A DNA stretch of 41,394 bases, taken from NCBI GenBank assembly GCA_020027535.1, contig JAHRAK010000067.1, forward strand, positions 1 to 41,394, in the 5' to 3' direction. How positions within the stretch are numbered: position 1 is the first letter of the stretch; each line of letters opens with the position of its first letter. Shown piece by piece: positions 2,346-8,016 of the stretch. This stretch comes from Nitrospirales bacterium (GTDB lineage Bacteria > Nitrospirota > Nitrospiria > Nitrospirales > UBA8639). Both the position numbers and the translations under genes were made by a program. The notes beneath the pieces were generated by a model. It ran no database searches, was not told the DNA's origin, and saw nothing but the letters and a program-made list of their open reading frames with translations.

Positions 2346-3244
2346 ATGCGGTCGCTTCCCCCCCTTGACTGTCTTCGCTTCTTTGAGGCGGCCGCCCGCC
2401 ACGAAAGTTTCACCAAGGCTGCCGAGGAACTTTGCTACACGCAGTCTGCCGTGGCTTATCGCGTGAAGATGCTGGAAGCCTATCTCGGCTATCCGTTGTT
2501 TACGCGCCAATCGCGCGGCGTACGCCTCACCTCGGACGGGCGCGCGTACCTGACGCATATCCAGCGCATCTTCGCCGATATCTACCATGTCACCCAACAC
2601 GACCGGAGCCGCCACGGGCACACGCTCCTGAAGGTGGTCGCAGTTGAGGTCGTGGCGGAGCAATGGCTCATGCCGCGGCTCGCGCATTTCAATACAGGCC
2701 ACTCCGAGATCGCCATCGAATTGGAAACCGATCATCGCAAGGTTGACCCCCACCGACGGGACTTCGACGTTTGGATCGCGTTCACCGAGACGGTCGCGGA
2801 CGGCTTGGACGCTGAGACGCTGTTCGCCGAGACGCTGTTGCCCGTTTGCAGTCCCGCCCTCCGGGCGGCGCGGGACGGCTGACCAAACCGGGCAACCTGC
2901 GCCGTTGGCCGCTGCTCTACGACCTCGAATGGAGCGCCTACTGGGGCCACTGGTTCGCCAGTCACGGCGAGCCGCCACCGGATCTGTCGACAGCGTCGGG
3001 CTTCCGGCTTTACAGCATGATGATTCAAGCCGCCATCAATGGCATGGGCGTGGCCCTGGGACATGCAGCGATGATCGCGCGCGAACTCGAACGGGGACAA
3101 CTGGTGGCCCTGTCCCAGACGTCTATCGCCGCGCCCGCCCGGTATTTCCTGGTGACGGCGCCGGGCGCCCGGAGTCGGCCTGAGGTGCAGGTTTTCCGGA
3201 ACTGGATCATGGATCAGGTCGCCCAACAACGGTCACTGGCGTAA
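2346..3244 (+). pseudogene. LysR-family (GcvA-like) transcriptional regulator, frameshifted
   Basis: The first frame (2346-2882) encodes a LysR helix-turn-helix: LDCLRFFEAAARHESFTKAAEEL, then TQSAVAYRVKMLEAYLGYPLFTR, followed by the start of the effector domain, ending CSPALRAARDG and a stop. The second frame, open from about 2846 to 3244, continues with GRLTKPGNLRRWPLLYDLEWSAYWGHWF and the rest of the effector domain (GFRLYSMMIQAAINGMGVALGH, QVFRNWIMD). Joined, the product is about 300 residues, the normal size for LysR/GcvA regulators, so a one-base loss (or two-base gain) near 2856-2872 in GC-rich sequence splits an otherwise intact gene. The C-terminal part keeps the conserved PLLYDLxW and GxGVALG motifs, which suggests recent loss or a sequencing error. 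No target gene is evident beside it. Confidence 0.75.
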
Positions 3245-3316: not shown

Positions 3317-3652
3317 ATGAACACCTTGACCGAGAGAATTCGTGCTGCCCGGGAAGAGGCGGGCTTCTCTCAACCGGACGTCGCCAGGGCGCTCCGCATC
3401 TCGGCTTCTGCTGTCAATCAGTGGGAACACGGCTTCAGCAAAAACATTAAATTGCCGACTTTCTTCGCCCTCTCCCGTGTGCGAGGGACCGCGGCGATGC
3501 CGCCGGCCCCCGACTTTCCCGCCCCCACCGGCGAGGAACGAGCGCTGCTGCACGATGTTCGCCAACTGCCCACCACCCTACGAAGAGTGTTGCTGCAGTT
3601 CGTGCGCGGGCTGTGCGATGTCTATGTTTCGTTTGATAAAGACGGCCGATGA
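3317..3652 (+). CDS. XRE-family helix-turn-helix regulator
   Basis: ATG at 3317 is chosen because AGGAGG lies at 3299-3304 and the helix-turn-helix starts right after it. The 111-residue product opens with ERIRAAREEAGFSQPDVARALRISASAVNQWEHG, a Cro/C1-type helix-turn-helix (residues ~6-40), followed by NIKLPTFFALSRV, normal for this fold. After residue 55 the sequence becomes proline-rich and less typical (RGTAAMPPAPDFPAPTGEE), then ends in a helical segment with LRRVLLQFVRGL. It is probably a cytoplasmic DNA-binding protein. Its target cannot be told. It stands alone, behind the LysR remnant and before a repeat-rich gap. The odd middle part could reflect divergence or a compensated frameshift. 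Confidence 0.7.
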   Translation: MNTLTERIRAAREEAGFSQPDVARALRISASAVNQWEHGFSKNIKLPTFFALSRVRGTAAMPPAPDFPAPTGEERALLHDVRQLPTTLRRVLLQFVRGLCDVYVSFDKDGR

Positions 3653-3876: not shown

Positions 3877-3937
3877 GCTGGATCCCTTCCTTGACTGGAT
3901 CCCCGATTAAGAACGTCAGGGACAAGCGTCGGGGATT
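3877..3937. repeat. intergenic repeat family A (CTGGATCCCC...TCGGGGAT), degenerate copy
   Basis: Holds CTGGATCCC, then CTGGATCCCCGATTAAGAA and later CGTCGGGGAT. Family A copies occur at 4398, 8221, 10535, 16305, 17448, 26650 and 33759. Confidence 0.7.
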
Positions 3938-4041: not shown

Positions 4042-4092
4042 GACAAAATTGTCGGCTTCGGACAAAGATGTCGTGACTCCGACAAAGATGCG
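4042..4092 (+). promoter_or_regulatory. three tandem GACAAA-type operator/enhancer sites
   Basis: GACAAAATTGTC (4042-4053), GACAAAGATGTC (4061-4072) and the half-matching GACAAAGATGCG (4081-4092) recur every 19-20 bases, about two helical turns. The first two have GACA..TGTC dyad symmetry. They lie about 60-110 bases upstream of the sigma-54 promoter, a usual distance for an enhancer-binding activator. The activator is inferred, not identified; NtrC-type proteins are candidates. Confidence 0.55.
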
Positions 4093-4149: not shown

Positions 4150-4165
4150 TGGCATCGTTTTTGCT
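4150..4165 (+). promoter_or_regulatory. sigma-54 (-24/-12) promoter of the cyanate/nitrate transport-cynS operon
   Basis: TGGCATCGTTTTTGCT matches the RpoN consensus TGGCACN5TTGCW with one change (C to T after TGGCA), and the GG (4151) and GC (4163) doublets have the required 12-base spacing. The expected transcription start is near 4177, leaving a leader of about 190 bases before the first gene. Confidence 0.75.
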
Positions 4166-4218: not shown

Positions 4219-4256
4219 TGACATAGACGTCAGAATAGTTCTGGCAATGACGCCAG
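4219..4256 (+). promoter_or_regulatory. ANTAR-type two-hairpin antiterminator in the operon leader
   Basis: Hairpin P1 is TGAC-ATAGAC-GTCA (4219-4232). An 8-base linker follows, then hairpin P2, CTGGC-AATGAC-GCCAG (4241-4256). Both terminal loops are hexanucleotides with A at position 1 and G at position 4, the published hallmark of ANTAR-protein RNA targets, such as NasR in nitrate assimilation leaders. The 3' arm of P2 (4252-4256) lies within the 5' arm of the terminator (4251-4259), so P2 and the terminator are mutually exclusive. The binding protein is not encoded in this window. Confidence 0.7.
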
Positions 4257-4298
4257 GCCTGAGAGTTTTGCAGAACTCTTGGCCTGGCGTTTTTTTTT
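4251..4298 (+). terminator. intrinsic terminator inside the operon leader (attenuator)
   Basis: CGCCAGGCC (4251-4259) pairs perfectly with GGCCTGGCG (4281-4289), an inner AGAGTT/AACTCT stem extends the hairpin, and nine T residues follow. It sits between the sigma-54 promoter and the first gene, so it must be read through for expression. Confidence 0.88.
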
Positions 4299-4364: not shown

Positions 4365-5711
4365 ATGGCACACACCATTCATCATACTGAAAACTTTGGA
4401 TCCCCGATTAAAAATGTCGGGGATGACAGCAATCGAGAGGAAACCCTGACTTCTGAGGAGTACCTCTCCAAGACACTCGAAGTCGCCGTGACGAAGGCCG
4501 TGCTGCAGGCAAGCGGTCCGAATCGACGACAACTGCTTGCCGGTGTCGGCAGCGCGGCGTTAATCGGCCTGATCAGCGAGTTTCTTCCTCTTTCCCAATT
4601 GCAGGCATTGGCCGCGGATCCCGTAGGCAAACCGGAAAAAACGGATCTCGGGATCGGGTTTATTCCCATTACCTGTGCCACGCCGATTATCATGGCCGAG
4701 CCCATGGGGTTCTACAGCAAGCATGGCTTGAACGCCAAAGTCAAACGGGCGGCGGGGTGGGCCATGGTCCGGGATTGGGCGATCAACAAGGACGTGGACG
4801 CCGCGCATATGCTCTCGCCTATGCCCTTGGCCATCACCCTGGGCGCGGGATCGCCGCAGGTCCCGTTCTATATGCCCGCCGTGGAAAATATCAATGGGCA
4901 AGCCATTACCCTGCACAACAAACATCAAGGCGTGAAAACGGCCGCGGATATGAAGGGGTTTCGCTTTTGCGTGCCCTTTGATTATTCCATGCACAATTAC
5001 CTGTTGCGCTACTTCCTGGCCGACGGCGGCGTGCATCCTGACAAGGACGTCCAGATCCGCGTGGTGCCGCCCCCGGAAATGGTCGCCAACCTCAAGGCCG
5101 GAAACGTCGACGGTTATCTGGCCCCTGATCCCTTTAATCAACGCGCGGTGTATGAGAACGTCGGTTTTATCTACAAACTCTCGAAGGACATTTGGGACAA
5201 ACATCCGTGCTGCGCGTTTGCGATCTCACAGGAATTCGCGACGACGCATCCGAATACGTTCCTCGCGTTGTTCAAGGCGATTGTCGATGCCACCCATTAC
5301 GCATCGAACCCGGCCAACCGGAAGGAAATCGCCAAGGCCATCGCCCCGGCGAATTACCTGAACCAGCCGAGAATCGTCCTGGAACAGGTGCTGACCGGAA
5401 CGTTCGCCGATGGGTTGGGCGGGATTCAGAAGGTGCCGAGTCGCATCGATTTCGATCCGTATCCCTGGCATTCCATGGCCGTCTGGATCCTGACGCAAAT
5501 GCGGCGCTGGGGCCATTTGAAAGAGGACGTGAATTATCAAAAGGTCGCGGAACAGGTCTATCTCGCGGCGGAGTGCGACAAGGTGGCCAAGAGCCTGGGC
5601 TATCCCACGCATGCCAAGACCATGACGCCGCACGTCATTATGGGCAAGACGTTCGATCCCATGAAGCCGGAAGCCTATGTGAAGAGTTTTCCCATTCACA
5701 GCATGGCGTAG
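4365..5711 (+). CDS. NrtA/CynA-family ABC transporter substrate-binding protein (Tat-exported)
   Basis: A 448-residue periplasmic binding protein of the nitrate/cyanate (NMT1-like) family that captures the substrate for the permease and ATPase behind it. ATG follows AGGAGGAGCC. A twin-arginine signal is seen (NRRQLLAGVGSAALIGLI, residues ~53-70), so export folded by Tat is likely. The mature part has the family pattern ITCATPIIMAEPMGFYSKHGL, FRFCVPFDYSMHNYLLRY and NVDGYLAPDPFNQRAV. The pre-signal extension of about 50 residues is unusually long, and residues ~12-22 (GSPIKNVGDDS) are encoded by an in-frame copy of intergenic repeat family A. Context with cynS suggests cyanate as substrate, but nitrate or nitrite cannot be excluded from sequence. 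Expression is probably controlled by sigma-54 and leader antitermination. Confidence 0.88.
   Translation: MAHTIHHTENFGSPIKNVGDDSNREETLTSEEYLSKTLEVAVTKAVLQASGPNRRQLLAGVGSAALIGLISEFLPLSQLQALAADPVGKPEKTDLGIGFIPITCATPIIMAEPMGFYSKHGLNAKVKRAAGWAMVRDWAINKDVDAAHMLSPMPLAITLGAGSPQVPFYMPAVENINGQAITLHNKHQGVKTAADMKGFRFCVPFDYSMHNYLLRYFLADGGVHPDKDVQIRVVPPPEMVANLKAGNVDGYLAPDPFNQRAVYENVGFIYKLSKDIWDKHPCCAFAISQEFATTHPNTFLALFKAIVDATHYASNPANRKEIAKAIAPANYLNQPRIVLEQVLTGTFADGLGGIQKVPSRIDFDPYPWHSMAVWILTQMRRWGHLKEDVNYQKVAEQVYLAAECDKVAKSLGYPTHAKTMTPHVIMGKTFDPMKPEAYVKSFPIHSMA
4398..4429. repeat. family A repeat inside the substrate-binding protein gene
   Basis: GGATCCCCGATTAAA...TCGGGGATGACAG is the same palindrome found between genes elsewhere (for example 17526-17556 and 33831-33861). 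Here it is in frame and encodes GSPIKNVGDDS ahead of the Tat signal. Confidence 0.85.
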
Positions 5712-5789: not shown

Positions 5790-6677
5790 ATGGGCATCAA
5801 GTCTACACAGCATCCGTTTTTCATCTCCATTTTTTTCCTCGGGATTTTTCTGTTCGCGTGGCACGTCGCCACGATCAGTCCCCCGTTCGATCCCACGGGC
5901 AAGACGGACGAGGAATTGCTGGTCATGGAGTTCAACGGCGATATCATGCAAACCGACGACGGCCAATACGTCTGGAATCCGGAAAAGGAAAAAGTCAAAG
6001 GTGTGCCGGGTCCCATGACGGTGATGGAGAAAGCCTGGGTCGAATTGAACGAGGCCTTTGTGATTAAAGGGACCAATGATCACGGGATCGCGTTTTTGGT
6101 GGGCTATACGGTTTCGCGATTTTCCGTGGGGTTCCTGACCGCCTCCGTGGTGGCGATTCTGGTGGGGATTATTTTGGGATTGAACCAGATGTTGTTTCGC
6201 GCGCTGAACCCGTTCATTCAAATCCTGAAGCCCATCTCGCCTCTAGCCTGGATGCCCTTGCTCCTGTACACGGTCAAGGATCCGAAATGGACGGCGATCC
6301 TGGTGGTGTTCATGGCCGCGGTCTGGCCGACCCTGGCCACCACCGCCTTCGGCGTGAACTCCCTTCGGAAGGAATATTTGCAGGTGGCCGACATTCTTCA
6401 GTTGTCGTGGTTCAAGCGGCTTTACAAGGTGATTCTTCCCGGAGCCGCGCCGACCATCGTGAACGGCCTCCGCATTTCGTTCGGGAGTGCGCTGGTCGCC
6501 GTGGTGCCGGCGGAGATGTTGCTCGGGGAACTGGGCGTGGGCTACCTGAGTTGGATTGAATGGAACAACCTGGATATTGCCGGCGTCATCTTCGCCATCC
6601 TGGTGGTGGGGACCGTCGGTGTGGTCTTGGATTCGGGATTTAATAAATTGGCCGGTTTGGTCACCTATCGGGAGTAA
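5790..6677 (+). CDS. NrtB/CynB-family ABC transporter permease
   Basis: A 295-residue inner-membrane permease of the nitrate/sulfonate/taurine (BPD_transp_1) type. One membrane segment lies near residues 6-25. An unusual hydrophilic loop of about 65 residues (FDPTGKTDEELLVMEF..) then precedes the conserved core of five or more segments. The EAA loop that contacts the ATPase is visible as LQLSWFKRLYKVILPGAAPTIVNG. The ribosome binding site is weak (GGAATAACA before ATG). It is the second gene of the operon, separated from the first by a 78-base gap holding a family C repeat, and followed after 4 bases by the ATPase gene. The substrate is inferred to be cyanate or nitrate. Confidence 0.88.
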   Translation: MGIKSTQHPFFISIFFLGIFLFAWHVATISPPFDPTGKTDEELLVMEFNGDIMQTDDGQYVWNPEKEKVKGVPGPMTVMEKAWVELNEAFVIKGTNDHGIAFLVGYTVSRFSVGFLTASVVAILVGIILGLNQMLFRALNPFIQILKPISPLAWMPLLLYTVKDPKWTAILVVFMAAVWPTLATTAFGVNSLRKEYLQVADILQLSWFKRLYKVILPGAAPTIVNGLRISFGSALVAVVPAEMLLGELGVGYLSWIEWNNLDIAGVIFAILVVGTVGVVLDSGFNKLAGLVTYRE

Positions 6678-6681
6678 CCTT

Positions 6682-7566
6682 ATGTCTTTTCTCTCTATCG
6701 ATCATATGAGCAAGTATTTCCCGAGTCATTCCGGGGATGGCGACGTCTGCATCTTCGAAGACGTCACGGTCAAAGTGCACAAAGGTGAATTCGTCACCGT
6801 GATCGGGCATTCCGGGTGCGGAAAGAGTACGCTACTCAATATCATCGCCGGGTTGGAAACGCCAACCGAAGGCGGAGCCATTCTGAACGGACAGGAAGTC
6901 ACGGGTCCGGGATTGGATCGGATGGTGGTGTTTCAAAATTTCGCGTTGATGCCATGGATGACGGTCTATCAGAACATCGCCCTCGCCGTCCGTTCGGCCT
7001 ATCCCACCTGGAGTTCGCAAGAGATCAAAGCGCACGTCCAGAAATACATCACGTTGGTCGGCCTGCAAGGGGCCGAAACCAAAAAGCCCACGGCCTTGTC
7101 CGGAGGAATGAAACAACGGGTCGGGCTGGCTCGCGCGTTTTCCATTGAACCGAAGGTCCTCTTGCTGGACGAACCGTTTGCGCAAATCGACGCGTTGACC
7201 AGGGGCGTGATTCAAGAGGAACTGGTGCAGATGTGGAATGCCACCCGCAACACGGTCTTCATGGTGACGCATGACGTGGATGAGGCCATCCTGCTCTCCG
7301 ATCGCATCATGCTTATGACCAACGGCCCCTCGGCACGGATTGCGGAAATCGTGGACGTGACCATCCCCCGGCCGCGGTCACGGGAAACGATTATCGAAGA
7401 CGAACATTATTACAAGATCAGAAACCACATCATTCATTTTCTCGTCCGCCACGCCTCGCACGGCCAAGAGGGTGAGAGCGGGGATGCAGCGGAACGGTCC
7501 GGCCCCGTCGAGATTAATTTCCGTGATCAGGCGACAAAAGAGTATGAAACCACAGCATCACACTAG
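6682..7566 (+). CDS. NrtD/CynD-family ABC transporter ATPase
   Basis: A 294-residue ATPase that powers the preceding permease. ATG at 6682 is preferred: the protein starts MSFLSIDHMSKYF, with GGAG upstream inside the permease stop region, while the longer open frame overlaps the permease in another frame. Visible motifs are Walker A GHSGCGKST, Q-loop FQNFALMPW, signature LSGGMKQRV, Walker B VLLLDEPFAQID and H-loop VTHD. The Walker core is typical of NrtD. The C-terminal tail (residues ~230-294) is a long charged extension without a recognised domain. It is third in the operon, 15 bases before cynS, and co-transcription is likely. Confidence 0.9.
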   Translation: MSFLSIDHMSKYFPSHSGDGDVCIFEDVTVKVHKGEFVTVIGHSGCGKSTLLNIIAGLETPTEGGAILNGQEVTGPGLDRMVVFQNFALMPWMTVYQNIALAVRSAYPTWSSQEIKAHVQKYITLVGLQGAETKKPTALSGGMKQRVGLARAFSIEPKVLLLDEPFAQIDALTRGVIQEELVQMWNATRNTVFMVTHDVDEAILLSDRIMLMTNGPSARIAEIVDVTIPRPRSRETIIEDEHYYKIRNHIIHFLVRHASHGQEGESGDAAERSGPVEINFRDQATKEYETTASH

Positions 7567-7581
7567 AAAGGAGCGATCATC

Positions 7582-8016
7582 ATGGACGATGCGAAAGCTG
7601 CCATAAAGGCCAAACGTCTGAAGAAAAACATTAAGATTGCCGACGTCGCGAAAGCGGTAAAAAAGAGTCCGACCTTCGTGGCCGCCGCCTTAACCGGCAA
7701 TCATCGGTTGACGCCGAAGGAAGCGGCGACCGTCGGAAAACTGTTGGGCCTGGATCAGGAATCCACCGCCAGCTTGAGCCGGTTTCCGGTGCGGGATGAT
7801 TTTCCCAACATGAGTGATCCGTTCAAATATCGACTGCTCGAGGTCATCGGCGTCTATGGCGATGCCTTGCGGGATATGGCCAATGAGATGTTCGGAGACG
7901 GCATCATGAGCGCCATTGATTTCTCACTCGATATGGAAAAGGTCAAGGGAAGTCAGGGAGAAGATCGTTGCAAGATTACCCTCAACGGCAAGTGGCTCGA
8001 GTATAAAACCTTCTAG
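7582..8016 (+). CDS. cynS: cyanase (cyanate hydratase/lyase)
   Basis: Cytoplasmic enzyme, 144 residues, that converts cyanate and bicarbonate to ammonium/carbamate and CO2. The catalytic residues of the family are all present: R84, E87 and S110 correspond to E. coli R96, E99 and S122, with a constant offset of 12 (YRLLEVIGVYG and FGDGIMSAIDF). The N-terminal half is the usual helical, helix-turn-helix-like domain (KIADVAKAVKKSPTFVAAALTG). AAAGGAG precedes the ATG. It is the last gene of the transporter operon, so imported cyanate can feed ammonium supply; nitrite oxidisers are known to use cyanase this way. No separate beta-carbonic anhydrase (cynT) is beside it. Identity is firm. Confidence 0.96.
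   Translation: MDDAKAAIKAKRLKKNIKIADVAKAVKKSPTFVAAALTGNHRLTPKEAATVGKLLGLDQESTASLSRFPVRDDFPNMSDPFKYRLLEVIGVYGDALRDMANEMFGDGIMSAIDFSLDMEKVKGSQGEDRCKITLNGKWLEYKTF

Follow-up and report, generated by a model that had tools for sequence, protein, structure and literature searches.

A predicted ANTAR-type antitermination leader very probably controls a cyanate-uptake and cyanase operon in Nitrospirales

Main finding

Positions 4219-4298 of a 41,394-nt stretch of Nitrospirales DNA (the window), which precede an operon for an ABC transporter and cyanase, are best explained in full as a protein-dependent transcription-antitermination leader of the ANTAR type, a reading that we hold to be highly likely. 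A single nitrogen-linked ANTAR protein very probably must flip this leader switch before the cyanate-uptake genes are read. The mechanism is of the already known nas/eut/ami type, and the parts predicted to be new are an order-wide regulon, a cyanase target, a GAF-GAF sensor and a genus-specific sigma54 layer. Nitrification depends centrally on Nitrospira-type nitrite oxidisers, and in the literature searched no regulator of cyanate or nitrogen uptake in these organisms was found; searches pairing ANTAR with Nitrospira, ANTAR with cyanate, and antitermination with cyanase returned nothing relevant. The present analysis supplies a concrete candidate regulator, namely one ANTAR protein together with its RNA code and the genes it would target, and for a GAF-type ANTAR protein it defines a target regulon, albeit a predicted one.

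Leader hairpins and the terminator are mutually exclusive

A first-pass annotation of the window had claimed two hairpins whose six-base loops carry A at position one and G at position four (A1/G4), the second of them overlapping the 5' arm of a strong terminator before the first gene, and sequence and folding agree with both claims exactly. The P1 hairpin, TGAC-ATAGAC-GTCA (4219-4232, plus strand), has A1 at 4223 and G4 at 4226, and the P2 hairpin, TCTGGC-AATGAC-GCCAGG (4240-4257, plus strand), has A1 at 4246 and G4 at 4249. The 7-8 nt linker between them falls within known ANTAR-RNA ranges, which are 5-12 nt for Enterococcus faecalis eut (PMC3369931) and 2-25 nt for actinobacteria (PMC8164766). 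The intrinsic terminator (4249-4298, plus strand) comprises a stem at 4249-4291 and a T tract at 4290-4298, with the arms GACGCCAGGCC and GGCCTGGCGTT plus an inner stem, and has a folding energy of -30.8 kcal/mol. Since its 5' arm starts at G4 of the P2 loop and takes in the last three loop bases together with the entire P2 3' arm, the P2 and terminator folds exclude one another.

P2 has a folding energy of -8.5 kcal/mol, and P1, with only 4 bp, is weak by itself at -2.3 kcal/mol. A leader transcript reaching 4262, just before the terminator 3' arm, folds into P1 and P2 (-13.3 kcal/mol), and the complete leader transcript folds into the terminator, so read-through would require P2 to be held, the same requirement as in nas, eut and ami. 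The minimum-energy fold of the window's leader contains another hairpin, between the P1 3' arm and the P2 5' arm, which was rejected because the genus sequences, read by eye, do not keep it.

The 121-nt leader folds 5 standard deviations better than shuffled sequences, mostly because of the terminator. This dominance would suit a plain attenuator, or a short RNA that stops at the terminator, with the hexaloops there by coincidence and no protein involved, as would the frequency of such loops by chance. When 41 kb were scanned on both strands for two A1/G4 hairpins of at least 4 bp each and no more than 30 nt apart, P1/P2 was the single hit; shuffled windows held about 2.3 such pairs each, and dual hexaloops alone are therefore not significant and were rejected as a signal in their own right. 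Once an overlapping terminator (9 pairs or more) was also required, the combination appeared in 0 of 60 window shuffles, and in 3 of 3000 when only the 600 nt ahead of the gene were shuffled. What argues against the attenuator is that the stems change across genera around a constant G4 and a mostly constant A1, that leaders follow the presence and absence of an ANTAR protein, and that most leaders in the clusters examined stand ahead of nitrogen genes. We consider this alternative improbable, though the best of those weighed.

Loops are retained while stems are rewritten

The window belongs to a 2.23 Mb genome in 140 contigs whose closest GTDB relatives are Nitrospirales MAGs. Relatives were gathered by homology of the operon's first gene and not by the leader motif; the genomes compared are related, often incomplete and not independent samples. 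All 11 operon-bearing genus members in the alignment, the window's genome among them, carry the leader, and P1, P2, terminator and T tract align by column. Pairing is preserved in 98% of the P1 and terminator cells of this alignment, and 2 double changes occur; the share is 97% in shuffles and 26-50% with slid partners. Fixed A1/G4 loops on covarying stems had been expected in relatives. The hexaloops are indeed conserved, with G4 invariant in both loops across the 11 genus members, but A1 is not absolute: loop 1 begins with G instead in G048 (L007) and in G025 (L012), and so does loop 2 of G025. The ANTAR domain of G025, the member with this change in both loops, is nearly unchanged.

Across the order the stems are wholly different, and the loops, the closing pair and the terminator overlap are retained; one rewritten example pairs GTCGAGGC-AACGGC-GCCTCGGT with ACGGAC-AACGGC-GTCCGT. 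A leader lies no more than 1.5 kb upstream of the first gene at 44 of 60 Nitrospirales loci (duplicate genomes included) as compared to 1 of 49 others, and at none of these loci was a leader found on the opposite strand or inside the gene. In a set of 41 leaders pairing holds in 96.6% of cells, and 91 double-change cells were counted against 33 in shuffles, a figure inflated by the rows having been picked by motif. The closing pair is C-G in 40 of 41 leaders for P1 and in all 41 for P2.

Linkers between P1 and P2 in family f3 (for example L020, L054 and L147) are either short (about 1-8 nt) or long (about 14-30 nt). The long ones exceed what EutV tolerated, in that stretching the linker of a EutV leader to 14 nt impaired induction (PMC3369931). 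More than one tandem hexaloop-terminator unit lies ahead of the same operon in L051 (Nitrospira moscoviensis), L024 and L047.

An Rfam search of the leader, the covariance check that the first-pass annotation had proposed, gave no support, with no family at gathering score and chance-level matches below it; Rfam may hold no ANTAR-target family. A family covariance model misses some real leaders, failing to recover the window's own and scoring the nadE leader at 16.6 bits, and was discarded as proof within the own genome. Exact patterns were therefore used there, and each returned one match, with none for the reversed-pattern control.

Leaders co-occur with a GAF-GAF-ANTAR protein

The genome's sole ANTAR protein has 422 aa and the architecture GAF-GAF-ANTAR, and is encoded on contig C52 in the order aroB-ANTAR-nadE-glnD. 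Its ANTAR domain aligns gap-free to those of Rv1626, EutV and NasR. A NasR/NasT-type protein had been anticipated; an ANTAR protein was found, but Pfam detected no NIT domain in it, setting it apart from NIT-type NasR. Throughout the order an ANTAR protein was found in 139 of 197 genomes, nearly always exactly one per genome, and in 47 of the 48 genomes that carry the operon's first gene. Family f3, the best sampled, has covariance-model leader matches in 26/26 ANTAR-positive and 0/11 ANTAR-negative genomes (p ~1e-9, a value that ignores phylogeny and shared ancestry), and within genus g12 leaders are present in 4/4 ANTAR-positive versus 0/11 ANTAR-negative genomes.

The window's leader combines the features of an ANTAR-target RNA, namely two A1/G4 hexaloop hairpins, the C-G closing pair and the P2/terminator overlap, in a genome encoding an ANTAR protein. 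That this protein must act for the operon to be read is what we infer from these sequences. The leader might instead be read by another RNA-binding protein, by ribosome or leader-peptide attenuation, or by a small molecule, given that ANTAR binding is deduced here from sequence and that GAF-ANTAR antiterminators were still uncharacterised at the time of a 2012 study (PMC3369931). The A1/G4 dual hexaloop with its C-G closing pair is, however, the very target defined for NasR by SELEX (PMC7496416), the P2 closing pair is C-G without exception in the leaders compared, no Rfam family matched, and nearly every genome offers a single ANTAR candidate. Another recogniser is thus very unlikely.

The predicted regulon covers nitrogen acquisition

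The operon, all on the plus strand, begins 66 nt after the terminator with a substrate-binding protein (NMT1_2/NrtA-like; 4365..5711), followed by an ABC permease (NtrB-like, below the NCBIfam cut-off; 5790..6677), an ABC ATPase (ntrCD subfamily, above cut-off; 6682..7566, with the start placed at the methionine of MSFLSIDH...) and the cyanase CynS (TIGR00673, above cut-off; 7582..8016). Because cynS lies in the operon, the transported ion is most likely cyanate. REP-like palindromes (GGATCCCCGAT...ATCGGGGAT) occur at 3897-3936, 4398-4424, 17529 and 33834 of the window, one of them in the part of the binding-protein gene that codes for the N terminus, where it adds the peptide around SPIKNVGDDS. 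A LysR-type regulator at 2346-3244 (plus strand) is frameshifted into overlapping ORFs (2346-2882 and 2846-3244) and is either a pseudogene or an assembly error.

Gene order in family f3 is typically aroB-ANTAR-nadE-amt-glnB-glnD-glnA-[leader]-(sigma54 activator)-binding protein-permease-ATPase-cynS-amt or nitrite transporter. In such clusters leaders also precede nadE, amt, formate/nitrite transporter, porin-like genes, the sigma54 activator, or cynS directly. Judged by these positions, the predicted regulon is one of nitrogen acquisition, comprising the cyanate transporter and cyanase, ammonium and nitrite transporters, nadE and a sigma54 activator. The suggestion that a cynS operon would extend ANTAR control holds for the cyanase target and the regulon, but not for transporter targets as such, which had already been predicted in other bacteria (PMC3369931).

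Two further leaders were found in the window's own genome. The second (C52:15984-16028), between the ANTAR gene and nadE, has a canonical P2 and terminator and a poor P1. The third (C15:38615-38672), before the sigma54 activator gene, has a canonical P1 of 7 bp, a 7-nt P2 loop (AATGAAC) and a terminator. This loop, in the activator's leader at L191 4603-4705 (contig C15), is an unusual hexaloop variant that is also present in the genus-mate G003 (L190). The activator lacks a receiver domain and has no recognised sensory domain, and its gene is followed on C15 by two formate/nitrite transporter genes, between which a remnant of the C-terminal part of the activator gene is found (L191 7520-7770).

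A sigma54-type promoter precedes the leader in one genus

A sigma54-type promoter, TGGCATCGTTTTTGCT (GG-N10-GC), was recognised at 4150..4165 on the plus strand by sequence pattern and genus conservation. Its TGGCAT and TTGC elements are invariant in 11 of 11 genus members in the alignment, and TGGCAT-N5-TTGC stands 64-69 nt before P1 in 9/9 genus leaders tested as compared to 0/76 other leaders; the exact sigma54 pattern has 5 matches in the 2.23 Mb genome. The genome also encodes rpoN and an AAA+ activator, completing by sequence the set expected of a sigma54-dependent promoter. A start downstream of the terminator is not supported, as no sigma70-like promoter was seen on the plus strand between the terminator and the first gene. 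That the terminator closes an upstream transcript and the operon's promoter lies in the 66 nt before the start codon is accordingly hard to credit, the nearest upstream plus-strand gene ending at 3652 with the conserved sigma54 promoter in between.

Upstream of this promoter lie the plus-strand dyads GACAAAATTGTC (4042-4053) and GACAAAGATGTC (4061-4072) and a third copy, GACAAAGATG (4081-4090), which are conserved in most genus members and absent in L011. GACA-N4-TGTC has only two sites in the window, about 90-110 bp upstream of the promoter. Two or more arise in 15 of 100 shuffles, so the count alone is not significant and the dyads are retained only as candidate enhancer sites for the sigma54 activator. 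On C15 the second nitrite transporter has a sigma54-like site, with one GACATTTTTGTC ~117 bp upstream of it.

Discussion

The conserved leader and its co-occurrence with an ANTAR protein support the ANTAR-type antitermination reading first proposed for this region, and the findings named in advance as able to overturn it in silico (hexaloops lost in relatives, no ANTAR protein, a start downstream of the terminator) did not emerge. In the proposed mechanism, RNA polymerase would start at the sigma54 promoter and transcribe P1 and P2. If no ANTAR protein is active, the downstream 3' arm would displace P2, and the terminator would form and stop transcription before the binding protein-permease-ATPase-cynS genes. 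Active GAF-GAF-ANTAR protein would bind both hexaloops and hold P2, allowing polymerase to read through. As the signal, the GAF domains probably sense either nitrogen status or some nitrogen compound. Counted against the ANTAR reading are the A1 to G changes, the poor P1 of the nadE leader, the 7-nt P2 loop of the activator leader, the 4-bp P1 of the window and the long linkers.

The same ANTAR protein probably opens the leaders before nadE and before the C15 activator. Provided that the C15 activator acts on the cyn promoter, expression of the operon would need both proteins, forming a coherent feed-forward loop: the ANTAR protein would open the leader of the activator, the activator would fire the cyn sigma54 promoter, and the cyn transcript would need the ANTAR protein again. 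The presence of the sigma54 promoter ahead of the operon only in the window's genus suggests such a feed-forward AND gate. We give an even chance to the wider proposal that this gate joins initiation and elongation in the control of cyanate use, with the ANTAR protein as the regulon's single nitrogen-status input across the order.

The ANTAR mechanism was defined by Ramesh et al. 2012, who also predicted such leaders upstream of ammonium, nitrate/nitrite and other nitrogen genes; the main text of that paper mentions neither Nitrospira nor cyanate (PMC3369931). About 400 ANTAR RNAs are known in firmicutes and proteobacteria (Mehta and Ramesh 2021, PMC8164766). The predicted regulon resembles in layout those of Desulfotomaculum acetoxidans and Pelobacter carbinolicus, where several leaders per genome precede the same kinds of nitrogen genes, although those organisms belong to other phyla and the available text describes no cyanate gene and no sigma54 layer for them (PMC3369931). 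The Enterococcus eut leaders read by EutV share the P1-linker-P2-terminator design and a multi-leader regulon, whereas EutV is a phosphorylated response regulator acting on ethanolamine genes through linkers of 5-12 nt (PMC3369931).

The Klebsiella nasF leader and NasR share with the present system the two A1/G4 hexaloop hairpins, the C-G closing pair, the overlap of P2 with the terminator and a nitrogen assimilation operon as target. NasR senses nitrate/nitrite through a NIT domain, whereas the protein described here has two GAF domains and its predicted targets are a cyanase operon and a scattered regulon. The Klebsiella nasF operon also combines Ntr/sigma54 control with NasR antitermination. 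In the Geobacter nitrogen-fixation cascade, Ueki and Lovley (2010) reportedly described an ANTAR regulator together with a sigma54 activator, with two-component inputs, and the joining of sigma54 activator and antiterminator in nitrogen control would be common to the two systems. Unlike that cascade as reported, the system proposed here would rely on a one-component GAF-GAF protein, and its receiver-less activator itself lies behind a predicted ANTAR leader.
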